Shown piece after piece: positions 25,936-53,573 of a stretch of 54,796 nt of DNA. Where the stretch lies: positions 1 to 54,796 of the forward strand of contig QCPK01000006.1 in the NCBI GenBank assembly GCA_003212555.1, given 5' to 3'. The translations under genes were made by a program, and so were the position numbers. The notes below the pieces were generated by a model. That model searched no databases. It was not told where the DNA came from and saw nothing but the letters and a program-made list of their open reading frames with translations. Within the stretch, counting starts at the first letter, position 1. The number at the start of each line of letters is the position of its first letter. This DNA comes from Prochlorococcus sp. AG-436-K22. Lineage in GTDB: Bacteria > Cyanobacteriota > Cyanobacteriia > PCC-6307 > Cyanobiaceae.

Positions 25936-27204
25936 TTATTTACTATGAAGACACTGCAAAATCCTCTTAGCCAAAGCTTCGCTTCCTCCAGACTTACCCA
26001 TCCGCCTTTTTCCTATAACAGATAAGCGCTCCCGTAAAAGGGAATCGTGAAGCAATAGCTGAACTGTTTTACTCAATTCAAAAGAATTCTGACAAGGAAT
26101 TACACTTCCACCTAACAATCGACTCTGTCTGATTGCAAATCCACTTTTAAATTGCGGTCCTTTACCAGGCAGTGAGACACTAGGAACTCCAAGCCCTACT
26201 AGTTGCTCAGTAGCAGTCCCAGCATTGGCAATACCAACCTCAACAAATCGAGACCACTCTTCAAATTTTCCAACACCAAGAACAAGTCTCAAATCATTCT
26301 TCTCAAAACAAGTATCTGTATCCATCTCAATGAGTGGAGAGCGAGCTTTCTTATAACCTTTATTCTTTAAAGAATCTTCTAACAACTGTATGGAAGGTTC
26401 TGAGCCAATAGCGACAAAAATAATCAATGGGGTCTTACTTTCAATTTGTTCAATAGCATTAAGCAATCGTGTAAAATTTGCCATAGCCTCTGGCATTCGA
26501 CTTCCACAAAGCAATATCAAACGTCTAAAATTTTTCAAATTAATAGGACGCACAACCGGCAGAAAGCCATCCATCATTGGGTTTCCTGGGGCGATAACTC
26601 TTACATTCTTTTTGCTTAATCCTCTAGCCGTTAATTTATCTCTTACTGCAACTATCTTGCATCGAAATGGTTTCATCAAGCTCCATTCCCAAGGCTCCCA
26701 TTCAGTACCTTTAAGTGAATGATAAAAATCACTCAACAATTTGGGTTTAAAGGTAGTCCATGTGTAATCACTTTTTGGAGTGCCAATAAATGCATAGTCT
26801 CCGCCACTACTCCACGCAAAAAAAAGCGGAAGTACATCACCTACAGCAACAATAAAAGTTCCATCTTTTGCAGCACTTCTAACAGACGACCAGTTTTTAA
26901 AATTTACCCATAGGAAACCTGCACACATATCTTGAATGAACCCGGTGATGCTTTGATTACTAAAGCCGCCACTAGGCAGCCTCAGTGAAGTCCCAGATTT
27001 AATCAACCATCGCTCTTTAATTGCATTCAAAAAAGTTCTGCCTTCTCCTACTAAAGAAATTACTTCCAACTTTAATTCCGGTTTTAATCGATGCAAAGCT
27101 TGCAATATTCTTAAAGCAATCAAATCTTCACCATGACCATTCGAAAGCACTAAAACATTTTTATTCTTTGGACTGATACGATCCAAAGGGGAGAAATTTT
27201 TCAC
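25936..27204 (-). CDS. Lipid-A-disaccharide-synthase-related glycosyltransferase
   Basis: A 422-aa protein from GTG 27204. It starts with the family signature VLVLSNGHGEDLIALRIL and has GT-B style segments (ILLCGSRMPEAMANF near the middle; VEVGIANAGTATEQLVGLGVPSVSLPGKGPQFK in the C-lobe). This fits the cyanobacterial LpxB-related family, not true LpxB. The frame continues upstream to 27363, but that part reads antisense through tRNA-Cys and is rejected. The GTG lies 7 bases from the tRNA 5' end, so its promoter would overlap the tRNA gene. Confidence 0.85.
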   Translation of the reverse strand: MKNFSPLDRISPKNKNVLVLSNGHGEDLIALRILQALHRLKPELKLEVISLVGEGRTFLNAIKERWLIKSGTSLRLPSGGFSNQSITGFIQDMCAGFLWVNFKNWSSVRSAAKDGTFIVAVGDVLPLFFAWSSGGDYAFIGTPKSDYTWTTFKPKLLSDFYHSLKGTEWEPWEWSLMKPFRCKIVAVRDKLTARGLSKKNVRVIAPGNPMMDGFLPVVRPINLKNFRRLILLCGSRMPEAMANFTRLLNAIEQIESKTPLIIFVAIGSEPSIQLLEDSLKNKGYKKARSPLIEMDTDTCFEKNDLRLVLGVGKFEEWSRFVEVGIANAGTATEQLVGLGVPSVSLPGKGPQFKSGFAIRQSRLLGGSVIPCQNSFELSKTVQLLLHDSLLRERLSVIGKRRMGKSGGSEALAKRILQCLHSK

Positions 27205-27210
27205 TCTCTG

Positions 27211-27281
27211 GGCGGCATGGCCAAGCGGTAAGGCAGAGGATTGCAAATCCTTTATCCCCAGTTCGAATCTGGGTGCCGCCT
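27211..27281 (+). tRNA. tRNA-Cys (anticodon GCA)
   Basis: A 71-base cloverleaf. Acceptor GGCGGCA pairs with TGCCGCC and the discriminator is T, as expected for cysteine. The anticodon loop is TTGCAAA (GCA) between GGA and TCC, and the T-loop is AGTTCGAATCT. It borders the gene-poor accessory segment to its right. Confidence 0.96.
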
Positions 27282-27757
27282 TCTTACCTTTCTTCTGACC
27301 GATCCCTTTGATCAGTTGCAAGAACTCAATTATTAGATCTCTCTTGCGGATTCTTTTCACCATCTAAAACGGTAGGGAAGCGGTAGGAAAGTTCGACCTT
27401 GGTTTTTAGAAACCCTTAAGGTACCTAAATTTTTGTACCTTTAACGGTATCAAGTATTCAAAAAAGTTCCAAATTTCTCTGTTCCAATGAAGATCTAAGG
27501 GCTGGCTGATCTTTATTGAGCACTTTTATTTGACGACTTTGGGTATACCATAAAACTACATTTCTTCTTTAGTGTACAAACAAACTATGAAACTGAGATG
27601 CTTTTTAGTATTCAAATAGACATTTTAGAGTCCCAGAACTGATACATCCCTCTGAAGGTATTAGGATGCTTCTCTTCAAATCTTGACTAATTTTTGTAAG
27701 TTTGTTTATTTTTTATCTTCTTGGCAATAGTTCGTGTAGAAAGCCAAGTTTATTGAG
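27282..27757. other. 476-base non-coding stretch next to tRNA-Cys
   Basis: No gene with a start was found. A minus-strand open stretch at about 27322-27417 (translation contains VELSYRFPTVLDGEKNPQ) has no start codon and could be a decayed fragment, but I cannot identify it. The motif GGTAGG recurs in close tandem near 27370-27390. AT-rich DNA continues to the end of the TPR gene. No second copy of the tRNA-Cys 3' end is visible here. Confidence 0.45.
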
Positions 27758-29734
27758 TTATTTAGATAATTCAATAAATTTATTCTCTATATCTTTTGTA
27801 AATAATTCTGAATTATAAAGTGATGCTGTTTCTCTTGATTTTGATAATTTAGATTTCAAGTGTATGAGCTTATCAGGATTTCTAGCTATATCTAAAGCTT
27901 TCTCTTCGTATTCTTTTTCATTATAAGTTATTAGTTCAGAAAGATCCATCGAATTCAGAAGACTAGCTGAGACTCTTGCCGCAAAACTTTTTCCAATTTT
28001 GGTTAGAATTGGTAACCCTCCCCATAACGCATCTGATGTTGTGGTGTGACCATTACAATTAAAAGTATCAAGTCCAAGGTCACCAAGAGAATATCTTGCT
28101 AAATGTTTATCTAATGATAAGTGCTCAGCAAAAATCAATCTATTTGAATCAACATTTCTTATTTCTGCTTCTTTACATAAATTTTCAACTACCCACATAT
28201 TAGATTTATATAACCATAATACACTTCCTTTTATTTCTGTAAGTAATTTCATCCAAATGTCAAATTCTTTTGAAGATATCTTTCTACTAGAATTAAAACA
28301 AGTAAATACAAATCCCTTTTCAGGTAGTTTGTAATCACTACGTTTTATAGTTTCTTTGGAAATTTCTTTTTTATTATCATTACATTGAAAACAGCTTGGC
28401 ATTCGAACTATCTTTTCAGAATAAAATTTTTCATATTCCTTGGGGATTGTAACGTTATCAGCGATTATATAATTAATTGTTTTGGCTCCAAGAGAACCTG
28501 GATATCCGAGATAATTGATTTGAATTGGAGCAACTTTATAAGAAAATATTTTCATTCTGGAATTCTTAGTATAGCCTTTCAGATCAATAGCAATATCTAA
28601 CTGATCTCTTCTTGCTAATTGAACACTTTCCATAGTACTTAAATTTTTAATATCTCTAAAAAAACATCCAGATGCTTTAGCTCTCTCAGTATACTTATCT
28701 TCTTTAGAGGTAAATGAGTATAAGTATATTTCGAATTTAGATTTATCATGTAATTCCAGAATAGAAGCAATCAGATGCATCGTTGCGTGTTCATAAAAGT
28801 CAGCAGAGAAGTAACCTATATGAATTTTTTTGTTTTTAAAAGAAGCTATTGGATATGATTCCTGAACAAAGTTTTCTTTAAAGTAATTTTGGGATCTTTT
28901 TAAATGTTTAATTGGATTATCTTCCAAAAAGAAAAAACCCCATGGTTTGACAGCTAGTCCTTTAATCCCAAGATTTTTTAACCAATTATTATAAGTTTCT
29001 TGATCGCTCCAGTCGCATATTTCTCTTTTCGATCCAATTAATTCAACCTTCGCAGAAGATAAAGCAGTATTTAACTTTAGAGCTTTTTTATAGCTTTTGA
29101 TAGCATCAGCATAGTGACCATTCGCTCTCAATATGTTCCCAAGGTTGCAATATGCCTCTGAAAAATCAGGCTTGAGTTGAATTGCTTTGCGAGTAGATAC
29201 TTGTGCTTCTGTTAATTTACCTATATCTCTCAATATGTTTCCAAGGTTGAAATGAGCCTCTGCGAAATTAGGGTTTAGCTCAATTGCTTTGCGAGTAGAT
29301 ACTTCTGCTTCTTTTAATTTGCCTATATCTCTCAATATGTTTCCAAGATTGGAATGAGCATTTGCGAAATTAGGGTTTAGCTCAATTGCTTTTCGGAGTG
29401 ATACCTCTGCTTCTTGTAATTTGCCAAGATCACTCAATATGCCTGCAAGATTGGAATGAGCATTTGCGAAATCAGGTTTCAGTTCAATTGCTTTTCGGAG
29501 TGATAGCTCTGCTTCTTGTAGTTTGCCAAGACCTTGTAAAATTGTTCCATAATTAGAAAAAACCCTGTGATCATTGAAACCTTCATTAATAAAATATTGA
29601 TAAAGTTTTGCTGCTTCTGAAATCTGTCCTTGTGCATGAAACTTAAATGCTTGATTTATTATTTGTTCTTTAGAAAGTTTAGTTGCCTTATTGCTTTTCT
29701 TTGTAGATTTATAATTCTCTCCAAAACCTTTCAT
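27758..29734 (-). CDS. TPR protein with an O-GlcNAc-transferase-type (GT41) domain
   Basis: A 658-aa protein from ATG 29734. After a lysine-rich start (MKGFGENYKSTKKSNK), about six TPR repeats of 34 aa span residues 27-225. The C-terminal half is a GT41 domain. HIGYFSADFYEHATMHL aligns with the human OGT DFGNHPTSH active-site segment, SSRK lies where the UDP-binding lysine is expected, and GLDTFNCNGHTTTSDALWGG matches the nucleotide-sugar site. Active-site residues look intact. The expected role is cytoplasmic glycosylation of proteins bound by the TPR, with targets unknown. A TTG at 29824 would add 30 residues and is less likely. Located in a gene-poor segment near tRNA-Cys. Confidence 0.88.
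   Translation of the reverse strand: MKGFGENYKSTKKSNKATKLSKEQIINQAFKFHAQGQISEAAKLYQYFINEGFNDHRVFSNYGTILQGLGKLQEAELSLRKAIELKPDFANAHSNLAGILSDLGKLQEAEVSLRKAIELNPNFANAHSNLGNILRDIGKLKEAEVSTRKAIELNPNFAEAHFNLGNILRDIGKLTEAQVSTRKAIQLKPDFSEAYCNLGNILRANGHYADAIKSYKKALKLNTALSSAKVELIGSKREICDWSDQETYNNWLKNLGIKGLAVKPWGFFFLEDNPIKHLKRSQNYFKENFVQESYPIASFKNKKIHIGYFSADFYEHATMHLIASILELHDKSKFEIYLYSFTSKEDKYTERAKASGCFFRDIKNLSTMESVQLARRDQLDIAIDLKGYTKNSRMKIFSYKVAPIQINYLGYPGSLGAKTINYIIADNVTIPKEYEKFYSEKIVRMPSCFQCNDNKKEISKETIKRSDYKLPEKGFVFTCFNSSRKISSKEFDIWMKLLTEIKGSVLWLYKSNMWVVENLCKEAEIRNVDSNRLIFAEHLSLDKHLARYSLGDLGLDTFNCNGHTTTSDALWGGLPILTKIGKSFAARVSASLLNSMDLSELITYNEKEYEEKALDIARNPDKLIHLKSKLSKSRETASLYNSELFTKDIENKFIELSK
29125..29532 (-). 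repeat. Four near-identical 102-bp coding repeats (TPR units)
   Basis: Tandem units begin at 29125, 29227, 29329 and 29431, exactly 102 bases (34 codons) apart, each containing a variant of CTCTCAATATGTTTCCAAG on the plus strand. They are the inner TPRs of the GT41 gene. Nucleotide similarity is high enough to suggest recent expansion or gene conversion. Confidence 0.85.
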
Positions 29735-29824
29735 CTTTATAACTTTAAGGTACTTTCCTTGTTTCGATAATACTATCTCATCCAGATAATGCAGAAATAA
29801 GTTTATTCTTTTTGGTAGGAGCAA

Positions 29825-30441
29825 TTTATTGGAATTACTTCATAGACCTGGAACTTTAATGCAGTCCAGAGGTGATTTTATTTGCATGACATGTGAACAC
29901 TTCACTATAGCTGTTCAGAAGCATTAATGACCATATTAACTTGCCCAGTTCATCTACTATGAATTCCTCAAGGTGAACATCTAACTAAGATATGGAGAAA
30001 CTGGCCAAAGCATAGAGTCCTAGAAATTGGATGGTCTCCTGAAGTTACTTAACCTCTTCTTCTGTGCTTTATGGCTATTGGTTTCTCAAATGAAGTCTCT
30101 TTAGTCGCTGTTGTGGGTTGGGGAACTGCTTTCCATGCACTTTCCAGTCATTGCTTATATGGGTTGACCCTTGATCAGAGTGTAAAGTGAGATTGATAAA
30201 GAACATGCACTGCATTGGAACAATCATTCTTGCGTAATTCTTCTTGGCAGTCCCCTAACAAATGGGACACCTGAAGTTCAATTCATTCTTCATGGTTTCA
30301 CTAGACAATTCACACGCAATCCTCAATTACTTCAAATGAAGTTATCATCATTAGTTTTTAATTTAAACCATTCTTTATTATAAAAATAGACTTAACTTTA
30401 GAAAAGAAATAATCAATATCATTATATTGATTATTTTATTA
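29825..30441. other. 617-base non-coding stretch between two glycosyltransferase genes
   Basis: No complete gene of normal size. A short plus-strand frame 30071-30190 (39 aa, hydrophobic, starts MAIGFSNEVSLVAVVGWG) is in the same frame as an upstream stretch (HLTKIWRNWPKHRVLEIGWSPEV) interrupted by stops. This suggests a decayed gene. See also the open remnant at 30186-30383. Confidence 0.4.
30186..30383 (+). pseudogene. Possible gene remnant without a start codon
   Basis: Sixty-five open codons follow a TAA at 30183 and end at TAA 30381-30383. The translation (for example LGSPLTNGTPEVQFILHGF) looks protein-like but has no usable start near its beginning and no identity I recognise. It is probably the tail of a decayed gene; chance open frame is the alternative. 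Confidence 0.25.
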
Positions 30442-31743
30442 TCAAATTTTAAAAGTTAAATTCTTTCTGAAAAGCTTTTCAGCTAAAATTACAGAAAATA
30501 AAATAAGCCAAGGAATTGAGGGATGAGAATATCTTGTCTCTATACTTAGAAATGGCATATAGATTAAATAGTTATACAATATAAAGGAAGAAGGGATAAG
30601 AAGTAAATTCTTTTTTAATCCGCAAGATATAAGTCCTATTAAACCAGTTACTACAAAATAAAAATTATAGCTCAATAAAATTATTTTAAAGATATACCAT
30701 TTAAATGAAAACCTTTCAAGAGATAAAGGAACAAGATCTGATCTAGTTCCAAACCACATATGCCTTGATCTTTGAATCCATAATTTCAGCGTAGAGAATG
30801 GTTTAGATAAGAGTCTTCGTTTGGCTTCCTTAATAAGTATTTGATCATCTCCTAATAGCATAGCTTTCTTAATTTCTTCTTTATTACTTAATTCATCAAA
30901 TGCATGGGGCGGAAGATTACTTCCACGCAACCATTCTTTATTCCAATTAGCATCAGGTTGCCATGTACCAATATAAAAAAGCAAGCCTGAAATACCCTTG
31001 GAAATAAAAATTTCTCCTTGAGTAATCTTATAATTTCTATATAGCCAAGGGCTAATTGTCAAAGATATAGTTAAGAAAATAGTTATTATAAATTTAAGAC
31101 TTTTTATTGAAAAACCTTTATTTATTAAAATTGCCAGAGAGATAAAAGTAGGGAGCAATAAATAAACCTCCCTTGTTAGGCATGTTAATCCAATAATTAG
31201 GCCAATATAAATAGAGTATATCAATGAATCTTTTTTACTTAGAAGAATCGATAAAGCAACTGTTAAAATAATTAGATTCGTATATAGACTTTCTTGTAAA
31301 ATTAATGAATCTTGTAATGAAGAAACTGGTGAAATAACCCACAAAAAAAGCCAATAAAAGATGATCTTCTTCGGTAAAGTGTTTTCTAAAAGTTTATAAG
31401 ATAGAATTGAAGTGGAAATAGTTAGTAGATGCTGCGTAATGATAATATTGAGTATCCAGAAACCTGGAATGAATTTGATAAGTGCCAGAAAATATGAATA
31501 CAATGGCGCTCGGTAATATTCTTGGACATATTGATTTCCATAAATTCCATATGAAAGAATATTCTCTGCCATATTCGCATAAAATTCTGCATCACCATCA
31601 TGAATATTAAATATGACCCCAAAATCGACAAATGAGCTCCAAAATAATCTGAATATTAATACTATGGAAAGAATAATGTAGTGATTTTTCTTTAATTTGA
31701 ACTCGAAAAAATCTAATAGCTTAAACATAGATTTAACTGACAT
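30442..31743 (-). CDS. Integral membrane GT-C-type glycosyltransferase-like protein
   Basis: A 433-aa protein, very rich in Ile, Leu, Phe and Lys, with roughly nine to eleven membrane helices. The first loop carries HDGDAEFYANMAENIL near residues 48-63; acidic residues at this place are the catalytic/metal site of GT-C enzymes such as ArnT, PMT and related polyprenyl-phosphate-sugar transferases. A TREVYLLLP segment and a long soluble loop near 240-310 also fit. Acts at the cytoplasmic membrane on lipid-linked sugars (inferred). ATG start at 31743. Its codon use is even more AT-biased than that of core genes, which fits an acquired cell-surface gene. Confidence 0.7.
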   Translation of the reverse strand: MSVKSMFKLLDFFEFKLKKNHYIILSIVLIFRLFWSSFVDFGVIFNIHDGDAEFYANMAENILSYGIYGNQYVQEYYRAPLYSYFLALIKFIPGFWILNIIITQHLLTISTSILSYKLLENTLPKKIIFYWLFLWVISPVSSLQDSLILQESLYTNLIILTVALSILLSKKDSLIYSIYIGLIIGLTCLTREVYLLLPTFISLAILINKGFSIKSLKFIITIFLTISLTISPWLYRNYKITQGEIFISKGISGLLFYIGTWQPDANWNKEWLRGSNLPPHAFDELSNKEEIKKAMLLGDDQILIKEAKRRLLSKPFSTLKLWIQRSRHMWFGTRSDLVPLSLERFSFKWYIFKIILLSYNFYFVVTGLIGLISCGLKKNLLLIPSSFILYNYLIYMPFLSIETRYSHPSIPWLILFSVILAEKLFRKNLTFKI

Positions 31744-32424: not shown

Positions 32425-32467
32425 TAAAAAAAAGCAAAAAAAGAGCGCCCTCAACGAGCAGCGCTCT
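32425..32467 (-). terminator. Intrinsic terminator of the Yfr1-like RNA
   Basis: On the minus strand AGAGCGC pairs with GCGCTCT (plus-strand positions 32461-32467 and 32442-32448) around a 12-base loop, followed directly by TTTTTTTGC and eight more T. A textbook rho-independent terminator, and the strongest in the window. Confidence 0.85.
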
Positions 32468-32495
32468 GTTGGACATATGTGTGAGGAGTGTCCAA
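32430..32495 (-). ncRNA. yfr1: Yfr1-like small regulatory RNA
   Basis: The minus strand carries the 11-base signature ACTCCTCACAC (complement of 32479-32489), which defines the cyanobacterial RNA Yfr1. A -10 box TATAGT lies at 32500-32505, placing the 5' end near 32493-32495. A GC-rich 7-bp hairpin and U-tract end it near 32430, giving about 60-66 nt; published Yfr1 RNAs are 54-69 nt as I recall. Unusual: the signature lies in a loop closed by TTGGACA/TGTCCAA, whereas classic Yfr1 has it unpaired between two stem-loops. Known Yfr1 represses outer-membrane porin mRNAs in Prochlorococcus. No guaB or trxA neighbours are present. Confidence 0.78.
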
Positions 32496-32499
32496 ACTT

Positions 32500-32505
32500 A
32501 CTATA
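32500..32505 (-). promoter_or_regulatory. -10 box of the Yfr1-like RNA
   Basis: On the minus strand this reads TATAGT, six to seven bases before the likely RNA 5' end (GGACACTCC or TTGGACACTCC). A clear -35 box is not visible; the region upstream is AT-rich. Confidence 0.55.
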
Positions 32506-32810
32506 TAGCAATAAAACCATATTTAAGAATTTTCCTGAAAGCAGAAGGTGAAGACAATCGATCTAAAAGCTTTGGTTTAACAAAGCCATTTTCATTTGAT
32601 ATAGCTAAAGCTTCTAGTCAATTAAAAAAGCAAAGCTTTCTTCTGGGACTTTGCAATATTAGAAATCAATGTCCCACAAAATACTAAGGACAAGTAATGC
32701 TTCCAAGTAAAAGGTGACCTCTAGGTCAAATAAGGCTTCTGAATTGTTAAGATGTTTAGCATTATTTTAAAGAGCCTTATATAGTTTTACAAAAGAAATT
32801 AGTCAATTTC
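32506..32810. other. 305-base intergenic stretch
   Basis: Upstream of the Yfr1-like RNA promoter and of the small membrane-protein gene. I see only a short palindrome (TGACC-TCTA-GGTCA near 32718) and an 8-bp repeat ATAAGGCT/AGCCTTAT with a long centre. It probably carries the promoters of both flanking units. Confidence 0.4.
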
Positions 32811-32942
32811 ATGGCGCCAAAAGTACAACCTCAAGATTTGACCTTCTCTCTTTTTGGAGTAGTTCAAGTTTCTGCAGTTATAATAGCCTCACTTGGTGCT
32901 CTCATTGGCTTTGAAAAGGTATTTTTCCCCTTCTCAGGTTGA
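32811..32942 (+). CDS. 43-aa single-helix membrane microprotein
   Basis: ATG 32811 to TGA 32940-32942. The product has a short polar start (MAPKVQPQDLTF), one hydrophobic helix at about residues 14-34, and the tail FEKVFFPFSG. This is the shape of small photosystem or thylakoid subunits, but it does not match PsaI, PsbX, PetN or other small subunits I know. It may be an unnamed picocyanobacterial microprotein. Coding is supported by the clean frame and composition only. Confidence 0.5.
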   Translation: MAPKVQPQDLTFSLFGVVQVSAVIIASLGALIGFEKVFFPFSG

Positions 32943-33004: not shown

Positions 33005-33160
33005 TTAGTATTCATTATCAGCGACACATTTACCAATACAAGATAGTCCATTTACTTTAGTTCTTTTACAATGAAAGCAAAGTAAACCGTTTTCATTTGA
33101 ATCATTCTTCTCATCATTTAATTTAATTTCCTCAGAAAATTTAAAATCTCTAGTGATCAT
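33005..33160 (-). CDS. 51-aa four-cysteine (zinc-ribbon-like) microprotein
   Basis: ATG 33160 to TAA 33005. The first 25 residues are charged; the second half holds Cys28, Cys31, Cys41 and Cys45 (CxxC-N9-CxxxC) in LLCFHCKRTKVNG and LSCIGKCVADNEY. The spacing suits a small metal-binding knuckle, and the C-terminal CVADNEY pattern recalls short conserved cyanobacterial proteins. Function unknown. It lies 23 bases downstream of the gene ending at 33184, so the two may be co-transcribed. Confidence 0.65.
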   Translation of the reverse strand: MITRDFKFSEEIKLNDEKNDSNENGLLCFHCKRTKVNGLSCIGKCVADNEY

Positions 33161-33183
33161 ATTTTTACCCACAATTTTTGATA

Positions 33184-33792
33184 TTAATCAGTTATCAATA
33201 CTGACGAAGTGGTGCTTGATGGAGGTAAATCAACAATTTTTATAGGGGGTGAGCTCTCCTTCTTAACTTCAGGCGAAGGGCTGTTTTTCGCATGTTCTTC
33301 TTTTGCACAAGCCTCCAAGGCCTCTCTTAATAATGAATCAAATGTTGCTCCTGGTAATCGATGGCGAGCAACTTCAAGAAATGTTCTCGGCAAAGATTCC
33401 GTTGCCGCATCTTTTAGAGCAGGATTATTACTTCTGTGCTCTTGCTCACCTTCTATTGCTCTAATAAATCGCAAAGTAACCTCATGTTTAGTAGAGGCTT
33501 TGATCAAAGTATCATTATCTTTATTAGTTTTATCGCATTCTAAATCCGTAATCCTTTTTTCTAAACTGGTTAAGACCTCTTCCGCTTCTTTAGAAATATG
33601 AGACAATTGTCCATCTGAAAGATTTGGTAAATCAGCAACATATACCTTTCCATGATCTCTAAGCGTAAGGAACGTTGGCCTAGGGCCTTGTCTGCTATCT
33701 AGTAAAGAACCATTTCCCATTGGTCTTTTAGGAGGCACTGGGCCTGCAGAACTTCTTCTACGAGTTACTCTTGGTTGATTTTCAGGTGACAT
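33184..33792 (-). CDS. Conserved hypothetical protein with disordered ends
   Basis: 202 aa from ATG 33792 (a TTG at 33804 is possible). The first 35 residues are basic, proline-rich and probably disordered. A folded middle (about 45-165) contains FLTLRDHGKVYVADLPNLSD, a predicted coiled-coil (LSHISKEAEEVLTSLEKRITDLE) and a helical RAIEGEQEHRSNNPALKDAA stretch. The C-terminus is again proline/serine-rich. No domain that I recognise. Possibly a picocyanobacterial core protein; neighbours (purM, four-Cys microprotein) give no clue. Confidence 0.7.
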   Translation of the reverse strand: MSPENQPRVTRRRSSAGPVPPKRPMGNGSLLDSRQGPRPTFLTLRDHGKVYVADLPNLSDGQLSHISKEAEEVLTSLEKRITDLECDKTNKDNDTLIKASTKHEVTLRFIRAIEGEQEHRSNNPALKDAATESLPRTFLEVARHRLPGATFDSLLREALEACAKEEHAKNSPSPEVKKESSPPIKIVDLPPSSTTSSVLITD

Positions 33793-33822
33793 TGAAGAAT
33801 TCAAAATCTAACTTCACAGCTT

Positions 33823-33939: not shown

Positions 33940-34977
33940 TCACACAGGTAGTCCAATAACCCTTGACTCCAAATCTGCATTTCGATCTTCAATCTGGCCA
34001 ATATTCCAAGCATTACAAGAATTTGCATGACAAATTTCTAAGACCTTTTGTGAGTGTTCTGAAGCGACAATGATACAAAAACCAATACCAAGATTAAAAG
34101 TATTCCATAAATCAGTTTCAGGAATATCCCCTTCAAGACTTAGCCAGCTGTAAATAGCAGGCTTTTCCCAAGAACTTGTATTGATATCAGCTCTTAAACC
34201 ATGAGGCAAGCACCTTGGCAAATTCTCAGGTAACCCTCCACCAGTGATATGTGCCATGCCTTTCAGAGGTATTTTCTCTTTAAGCAAAATTTGCACTAAG
34301 TCGACATATAGCTTTGTTGGCTTGAGTAAATAATCAATCAAAGGCTTTCTCTCACTACCAAAACAAGTGTCCTTATTCACTTTCTTCAATGCAATCACTT
34401 TCCGAATCAAACTAAAGCCGTTGCTATGCATTCCACTACTTTCTAATCCAATAATCTGATCTCCAGCTTTAATTTTCTTGCCATCGATAATGCTTTTTTC
34501 ATCAACTACTGCGACGCAAAATCCTGCTAAATCATATTGACCGTTTGCATAAAAACCTGGCATCTCAGCAGTTTCTCCTCCCAATAGGGAGCATTTTGAC
34601 TGCTTACAGCCATCCGCAATTCCTTCCACTACTTCAGATAAAGCATCTGGGCCTAATTTCCCTGTAGCAATGTAATCAAGGAAGAAAAGTGGCTCTGCCC
34701 CACTTGTAATTACATCATTAACACACATTGCCACTAAGTCTATTCCTACCCCATAGTGCGATTTATAATCCTGAGCTAATTCAAGTTTAGTCCCTACTCC
34801 ATCAGTACCAGAAACCAACACTGGATTGCTTAATCCCTCTGGTAAGCGCATAAATCCACCAAAACCGCCTATACCCCCAATTACCTCAGGCCGAGAAGTT
34901 GATTCCACAGACGATTTAATACGATTAACGAAGTCCCTGCCTGCCTCAACATTGACTCCTGAAGACTTGTAATCCAT
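33940..34977 (-). CDS. purM: Phosphoribosylformylglycinamidine cyclo-ligase (AIR synthetase)
   Basis: Fifth step of purine synthesis: ATP-dependent ring closure of FGAM to AIR. The 345-aa protein is normal length. Family features: [11 protein letters not shown] at residues 3-13, [12 protein letters not shown] near 54-65, [11 protein letters not shown] near 77-87, [11 protein letters not shown] near 122-132, and the C-terminal [16 protein letters not shown] start at 34977. Divergent from panC-cmk, with 139 bases that probably hold both promoters. Confidence 0.96.
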
Positions 34978-37229: not shown

Positions 37230-38006
37230 TTAGTCTATCTTAAAAAGAACTTTCTGAATATAGTCTTCAGTCCATTTCTTTCCGTAAAAACGAGTAAGCA
37301 TTCCTCTCGCAGGATCTTTCAAAGACCTATATTTTAAATAAGACTTCTGACCAGCTTGGAGTTTTAAAGAGAAATCCTTAGGGACTCTTTCAGCATTAGA
37401 AATTAATTGAAGGTATAAAGATAAATACTCTCTAAATGCAGGCCTGATAATTTCCTGAATGGTTAAATTACTGTTTTTTTCTAAAGGCAATCTTGTCCAT
37501 AAAAAACCAGGAGAGAAATATGGCTTGGCTTCTTTTGGGATATCACCTCCCTCAGGAAGTAAAGATTGCCATCGATTATGAATTGGAATCAACTTTTCCC
37601 AAACATCCTCTGTATGCAATCTGTTACTTTTTAAAACTGGTTGTAAGTCTAATGCAAGCAAATGTCCATTAGGTAATGTGACAAAATCAGCTCCAAAGAA
37701 AGGCAAATTATAATCTATCGAAGGTATAATTACTAAATTAAGCACTGAAAGAGGTCCTGTCCCCTGAATACAAGCTGCTCGGATTTGTTTAATCTTACTA
37801 AATTTACTTGCCCATGTGGAAGTAGTAATTTCAATTGTTTTCTTGGAAGATTCAGTAACAATTCTCTTATACAAGAATTCACCAGGTATTGGATAATTTT
37901 GAAGCTTAAATATAGATAACAAATCAAGCATATCGTTAAAAATAGGCTGCCATAGCCAGTCTTTTAAATTTAAAGGAGATAGGCTATTTAATCGTCTTAA
38001 AACCAT
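37230..38006 (-). CDS. pebB: Phycoerythrobilin:ferredoxin oxidoreductase
   Basis: Reduces 15,16-dihydrobiliverdin to phycoerythrobilin with ferredoxin electrons. The 258-aa protein belongs to the bilin reductase (FDBR) family; FFGADFVTLPNGHLLALDLQP holds the conserved Asp of the active site. The C-terminus LTRFYGKKWTEDYIQKVLF is typical. ATG start at 38006, three bases after the pebA stop, so the two are translated together. This matters in Prochlorococcus, which lacks phycobilisomes but keeps a reduced phycoerythrin in low-light lines. Confidence 0.94.
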   Translation of the reverse strand: MVLRRLNSLSPLNLKDWLWQPIFNDMLDLLSIFKLQNYPIPGEFLYKRIVTESSKKTIEITTSTWASKFSKIKQIRAACIQGTGPLSVLNLVIIPSIDYNLPFFGADFVTLPNGHLLALDLQPVLKSNRLHTEDVWEKLIPIHNRWQSLLPEGGDIPKEAKPYFSPGFLWTRLPLEKNSNLTIQEIIRPAFREYLSLYLQLISNAERVPKDFSLKLQAGQKSYLKYRSLKDPARGMLTRFYGKKWTEDYIQKVLFKID

Positions 38007-53119: not shown

Positions 53120-53526
53120 GAAAGCAGGAGAGGTGATCGCAATCGAGATTTGTTGGATTTCCACAATAAAGCCTCGGTTGAGGAAAGTCCGGGCTCCCAA
53201 ATGGTCAAACTTGCTGGGTAACGCCCAGTGCGGGTGACCGTGAGGATAGTGCCACAGAAACACACCGCCGATGACTTTTTATTGGGCCTTGCTCATAACT
53301 AGAACAGGCAAGGGTGCAAAGGTGCGGTAAGAGCGCACCAGCAGTATCGAGAGGTGCTGGCTTGGTAAACCCCGGTTGGGTGCAAGGCAAAGGTTTTAGG
53401 ATGACCATCTTGCCTATCTCCTATATAAAGGCCGCTAGAGGCTGTTGGCAACAACAGTCCCAGATAGATGATCGCCCGCTATCTAAACTTAGCTAGTGAA
53501 CAGAACCCGGCTTATGACCTGCTTTC
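53120..53526 (+). ncRNA. rnpB: RNase P RNA
   Basis: Ribozyme that matures tRNA 5' ends. The ends are set by helix P1: GAAAGCAGG (53120-53128) pairs with CCTGCTTTC (53518-53526). Conserved core sequences are GAGGAAAGTCCGGGCTCCC near 53180, AGGATAGTGCCACAGAAACACACCGCC near 53243, GGTAAGAGCGCACCAG near 53325, GGTAAACCCC, and AACAGAACCCGGCTTATGACCTG at the 3' end. Length of about 407 nt is typical of cyanobacteria. Exact ends are inferred from P1. Confidence 0.96.
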
Positions 53527-53573
53527 ACTCAATTTAATTATTAATGATTACATAATGTATCTAGTAAGAGAAA

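Follow-up and report, generated by a model that had tools for sequence, protein, structure and literature searches.

The minus strand of the window, the whole stretch of 54,796 nucleotides analysed here, carries the signature of the small RNA Yfr1 away from the usual setting of that RNA, which raises the question of what kind of RNA is encoded there. Yfr1 is defined by two stem-loops with the unpaired motif between them and is located mostly at guaB-trxA (PMC2190773). The statement in the sequence-only reading that an early survey had reported it absent from two low-light strains was correct, the strains being SS120 and MIT9211 (PMC2190773). That reading proposed either a relocated, structurally altered Yfr1 or a look-alike with the same target-pairing motif. 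The look-alike reading proved right, and such an RNA has already been named Yfr10 (PMC2518516, PMC6778093). The element was assigned, with a probability of roughly 0.8, to the trans-acting sRNA genes of the Yfr10 group, as very probably the orthologue of SS120 Yfr10 with a proposed Yfr1-like action on porins and Yfr2.

The sequence ACTCCTCACAC was found as an exact match on the minus strand and was the sole match within the window even at one mismatch, a tolerance at which 0.58 matches in the window were expected from shuffles. The minus strand reads TATATAGTAAG-TTTGGAC-ACTCCTCACAC-ATATGTCCAA-C-AGAGCGCTGCTCGTTGAGGGCGCTCT-TTTTTT. It was predicted to fold into UUGGACA-CUCCUCACACAUA-UGUCCAA, with the stem also closed by the first A of the motif, after which come a second hairpin, rich in GC (32467-32442), and a T run. 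The folding energy of 66 nt was -21.3 kcal/mol (z = -3.4), and none of 200 shuffles was equally low. A terminator search placed a T-run terminator at 32460-32446, and no consensus -35/-10 promoter was scored at the start of the RNA by the promoter search. The 5' end was estimated from the -10 box at 32507-32502 and the 3' end from the terminator, giving a predicted RNA of about 62 nt from about 32495 to 32434. The exact 11-base signature, -10 box, and intrinsic terminator noticed in the sequence-only reading were confirmed, and the predicted length agrees with the one given there. The fold that it called unusual is so relative to Yfr1 but not for Yfr10, in which the motif normally lies in a loop. 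The features of the locus are collected in Table 1.

Table 1. Features of the RNA and its surroundings in the window
Feature	Position	Strand	Evidence or remark
Yfr10-type small RNA (predicted ends)	32434..32495	-	R1 86.0 bits (32431-32499), conservation, fold z -3.4
Ultraconserved motif ACUCCUCACAC	32479..32489	-	exact; invariant in alignment A1
5' hairpin, motif in 13-nt loop, stem UUGGACA/UGUCCAA	32469..32495	-	folding, stem exchanges in relatives
Intrinsic terminator hairpin AGAGCGCU-G-CUCGUUGAG-GGCGCUCU and T run	32435..32467	-	folding, terminator search, covarying pairs
-10 element TATATA, overlapping TATAGT (32505-32500)	32502..32507	-	TATA box in 17/18 locus copies of Yfr1-less genera
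43-aa membrane-protein-like ORF, in syntenic block	32811..32942	+	68-100% identical, 15 related loci
55-aa Cys-rich ORF, in syntenic block	33005..33172	-	conserved in relatives
206-aa conserved protein, purM-side neighbour	33184..33804	-	syntenic
purM, syntenic anchor	33940..34977	-	tblastn in relatives
tRNA-Cys(GCA), syntenic anchor on other side	27210..27283	+	
TIGR03492 lipid-A-disaccharide synthase-related gene, anchor	25942..27207	-	span of tblastn match
tRNA-Cys-to-RNA stretch, two long glycosyltransferase-type ORFs	27758..31743	-	
TPR/GT41 (glycosyltransferase-41 domain) ORF	27758-29824	-	
PMT_2-like membrane protein ORF	30442-31743	-	below curated cut-off

The window belongs to a genome (G000, 1.27 Mb, 72% complete) of the same genus as SS120. 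The exact 11-mer was present in 12 of the 14 genomes of this genus, and at least one RNA of this type was found in 13 of them with the covariance model R1, which was built from 30 sequences including the window RNA. Among 12 genus copies at the locus, pairwise identity was about 0.8-1.0 within the RNA but mostly 0.1-0.5 on either side of it, so that conservation at the locus is confined to the RNA element. In alignment A1 (30 sequences), the first stem alternated between GGAC/GUCC, CGAC/GUCG, and CGAG/CUCG, and the terminator stem between GGCGC/GCGCC, GGUGC/GCACC, and GGCAC/GUGCC. Two-sided changes occurred in eight pairs, 91% of the cells paired, and the covariation score was 0.232 against 0.111 in shuffles (reached by 0 of 500). 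Within the family, R1 matched in 34 of 59 genera; a single genome could have as many as seven matches, and the weakest matches were near the threshold. A search for a phage copy of the RNA returned only chance-level partial matches, and viral contigs gave none. In low-light Prochlorococcus, the element is genuine and conserved as a small regulatory RNA.

The gene order around the RNA, purM - 206-aa gene - 55-aa ORF - 43-aa ORF - RNA - tRNA-Cys(GCA) - TIGR03492, was conserved, and SS120 and MIT9211 share this long-standing syntenic position with the window genome. The first of these genes is one that we take to be purM from its protein sequence; neither the 206-aa protein nor the 43-aa ORF had a Pfam or NCBIfam match. 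Of 15 loci measured, 10 had the RNA 94-389 nt from tRNA-Cys, compared with 5148 nt in the window. The gene-poor look therefore comes from a syntenic block interrupted by about 5 kb, and the RNA itself did not move. The description of the RNA as lying alone in a gene-poor segment was right only in part, since the conserved 43-aa and 55-aa ORFs lie 0.3-0.7 kb upstream and, on the downstream side, the gap adjoins two genes of glycosyltransferase type. In another genome (G009, locus L014), a different glycosyltransferase-like ORF was found between tRNA-Cys and the RNA. Farther along the window, RNase P RNA (RF00010, 248.9 bits) was located at 53121-53529, beside tRNA-Arg.

Yfr10 is described as bearing the Yfr1 motif in a loop on top of a stem, with sequence and synteny otherwise unconserved, and as detected in SS120, which lacks Yfr1, and in Synechococcus WH8102 (PMC6778093). 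The window RNA has both the motif, as an exact match, and the motif-in-loop fold, as judged by folding and covariation. No sRNA in Rfam matched the element at the gathering threshold, and its best match was RF02362 Yfr10, with 28.5 bits against a gathering score of 43. The RNA thus stands formally outside RF02362, and structure, motif, and orthology are the grounds for placing it in the Yfr10 group as published. MED4 Yfr10 scored 99 bits with RF02362, while at E <= 1 no Yfr10 was listed by Rfam at the copies of SS120, MIT9211, and MIT9313 or at two Yfr2-linked copies, and for this reason RF02362 was read as a narrow model. MED4 Yfr10, which falls exactly on the published 346661..346738, was matched by R1 (29.9 bits), as was a second MED4 locus that is Yfr10 by Rfam (30.0 bits). 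Two exact motifs were present in SS120: the first falls within a 905-aa ORF, and the second belongs to the RNA at the purM/tRNA-Cys locus (1595999-1596067, minus strand), which scored 84.8 bits with R1. Since the first motif lies in an ORF, the published SS120 Yfr10 is identified by elimination with the copy at this locus and very probably has the window RNA as its orthologue. The window RNA and MED4 Yfr10 (RF02362; 78 nt, a similar length) have in common ACUCCUCACAC in the loop of the 5' hairpin and a terminator hairpin. They differ in the stem, which is GGAC/GUCC in the window RNA and AUCAGA/UCUGAU in MED4 Yfr10, and in the terminator core, GGCGC-CUCGNUGAG-GGCGC in the window RNA; unlike MED4 Yfr10, the window copy lacks an adjacent Yfr2 and scores too low to reach the gathering threshold of RF02362. 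Yfr104 of MIT9313 is another motif-bearing sRNA (PMC6778093), and one of the R1-type copies of that strain, at 1475610 (69.4 bits) and 1018038 (58.4 bits), may be Yfr104.

In MED4 the order is Yfr10-Yfr2 (PMC2518516). Tandem linkage of the two is reported for high-light strains, and the passages on it in PMC2518516 and PMC6778093 state no requirement for the group; linkage to Yfr2 was not treated as defining for Yfr10 here. As in MED4, paralogues in the family of the window RNA stand in tandem upstream of Yfr2: a Yfr2-like sequence followed downstream on the same strand in 28 of the 92 strong R1-type copies, at 103-167 nt in 27 of them. Around the window copy, no such sequence was found up to a distance of 600 nt. 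The 28 include a second copy in the window genome (G000 C43), which immediately precedes an RNA that Rfam identifies as Cyano-1/Yfr2, in the MED4 order. Yfr2/Cyano-1 (RF01701), to which several loci of this genome fit, is a partner RNA with a 5' end complementary to the motif; the motif is present in it in the opposite sense, and its fold differs from that of the window RNA. The other exact motif of the genome lies on contig C2 (about 37390-37580; L001 1487-1526 (-) and 1338-1403 (+)), in an RNA convergent with Yfr2/Cyano-1, the two apparently having a common two-way terminator. This motif (C2:37554) was considered as a Yfr1 and rejected, with 12.2 bits from R2, the Yfr1 covariance model built in this analysis; the RNA faces a Yfr2-like RNA. 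The same C2-type RNA was observed in L010 and L016, with a strong AUCAGAGCC/GGUUCUGAU stem resembling MED4 Yfr10.

Porin repression is documented for Yfr1, which represses the porin PMM1121 of MED4 in a reporter assay, with relief of the repression by Yfr2 (PMC6778093). Of 21 distinct porin starts from this genus (g1) and MIT9211, 20 had the sequence GTGAGGA shortly before the ATG, and in SS120 and MIT9211 the complement extends up to GTGTGAGGA (RNA: GUGUGAGGA). Judged by these starts, porin mRNAs keep the complement of the motif at the ribosome-binding site. GAGGA is also a Shine-Dalgarno sequence, and GTGAGGA was not enriched across the window as a whole. Prediction of pairing with porin mRNA starts, which had been suggested as a check, placed the porin of the window genome first among 63 genes of that genome for loop pairing (-13.2 kcal/mol), and the energy dropped to -3.7 kcal/mol when UCCU of the motif was changed to AAAA. 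The Yfr2-type RNAs of the genome have UGUGAGGAGU, the complement of the motif, at the 5' end; for one of them, the pairing energy with the RNA was -20.3 kcal/mol, compared with -7.3 kcal/mol with the motif mutant. By analogy with Yfr1, we infer that the loop CUCCUCACA would pair at the ribosome-binding region in mRNAs for som-type porins (..GUGAGGA..AUG) and that pairing seeded in the loop would block porin translation, as Yfr1 does in MED4. Yfr2 RNAs, through the complement at their 5' end, would bind this loop as well, acting as a sponge that sequesters it. In this lineage, which is without Yfr1, a change of promoter may have turned the purM/tRNA-Cys copy into the principal RNA carrying the motif.

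Several other explanations of the element were weighed. The 11-mer does arise by chance, as shown by the SS120 copy within an ORF, one of the two exact copies in that strain, but a chance motif in untranscribed intergenic DNA is effectively refuted by the covariation, the element-confined conservation, the -10 box, the terminator, and the many orthologues and paralogues. A small-protein gene or an antisense transcript is extremely unlikely: the window does hold two open frames, one of 37 aa on the strand of the RNA and one of 88 aa opposite it, but stops interrupt the frames in several relatives and the similarity is largely limited to the RNA element. A Yfr1 gene that had moved here from guaB-trxA, with its motif becoming enclosed in a hairpin, would agree with the identical 11-nt motif, the similar length, and a lineage lacking Yfr1, yet it is very improbable. 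R2 gave 18.9 bits for the window RNA, whereas two genuine Yfr1 loci, both members of R2's own alignment, scored 82.1 and 81.7 bits. The Yfr1 covariance search proposed in the sequence-only reading therefore speaks against its first alternative, as does the old syntenic place in common with SS120 and MIT9211. Unlike in Yfr1, the motif is enclosed in the first hairpin instead of being single-stranded between two stem-loops, and the RNA is placed between the purM/206-aa block and tRNA-Cys instead of beside guaB and/or trxA. R2 matched in 203 of the 251 genomes of the family and in none of the 14 genomes of the genus, SS120 included; g16 and g39 (MIT9211's genus), with three genomes each, were absent from the match list. 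R2 found nothing at E <= 10 in the guaB-type loci of ten genomes of the genus. For the window genome itself the absence of Yfr1 is inferred from its genus, since an assembly that is 72% complete and without guaB could conceal one. The result envisaged as refuting the sequence-only reading, a canonical Yfr1 elsewhere with the motif not conserved in relatives, was not what we saw: we found no canonical Yfr1, and relatives retain the motif. Genera that do have Yfr1 carry an R1-type RNA at the same locus plus a separate Yfr1, as in G016, with Yfr1 at 541991 and an R1-type copy at 1337283 within the syntenic block, and the locus is thus very probably older than the loss of Yfr1.

The role of this Yfr10-type RNA is a separate matter, on which the promoters bear. 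A TATA -10 box was present in 17 of 18 locus copies in the Yfr1-less genera (g1, g16, and g39), in 0 of 7 copies at the same locus in other genera, and in 5 of 67 R1-type copies outside the locus, most of the others being of the TAGAAC type. Six of the seven other genomes had Yfr1 by R2, and the seventh (G032, 72% complete) had none. The TATA boxes and the retained porin sites suggest, without proving it, that Yfr10 took over the role of Yfr1: the genera of SS120 and MIT9211 and a third genus would have lost Yfr1, and the Yfr10 at the locus, with a stronger TATA-type promoter, would have replaced it and kept the porins under the same motif by another scaffold. We regard this replacement as possible, at somewhat under even odds. 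The RNA could also belong to the Yfr10 group without being the functional heir of Yfr1, acting as an accessory regulator responsive to dark and light, with the porin sites kept as plain Shine-Dalgarno sequences, a tentative reading that we place at similar odds. It accords with MED4 Yfr10, which is described as responsive to darkness and light, with many targets not common with Yfr1, the two sets overlapping only in part (PMC6778093). Against it stand the locus-specific TATA box and the GUG kept 5' of GAGGA in the porin starts, up to GUGUGAGGA in SS120 and MIT9211. The Yfr1-less genera are probably related to each other, so the promoter difference may be a single evolutionary event; it is suggestive only and weak evidence against an accessory regulator.

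The Yfr10 group was already known; new are the fixed chromosomal position, the pattern of promoters, and the porin sites that have been kept. The low-light form is a family that shows covariation, often occurs in several copies, and includes one member at a syntenic position; it can be annotated where the present Rfam model fails to do so. The patterns of promoter and target sites fit the replacement idea, and SS120 and MIT9211 allow a direct test of it. On contig C2 of G090 (L233 11054-11520 and 18361-18712), Yfr10-type copies were observed in clusters, and the sequence upstream of them was nearly identical. Two of them adjoin small ORFs that we take to be AlpA/excisionase-like, and these copies possibly spread with mobile elements. 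A Yfr10-type copy about 0.3 kb from a porin gene was found at L243 13569-13635 (G010:C11) and at L289 3028-3094 (G005:C5).
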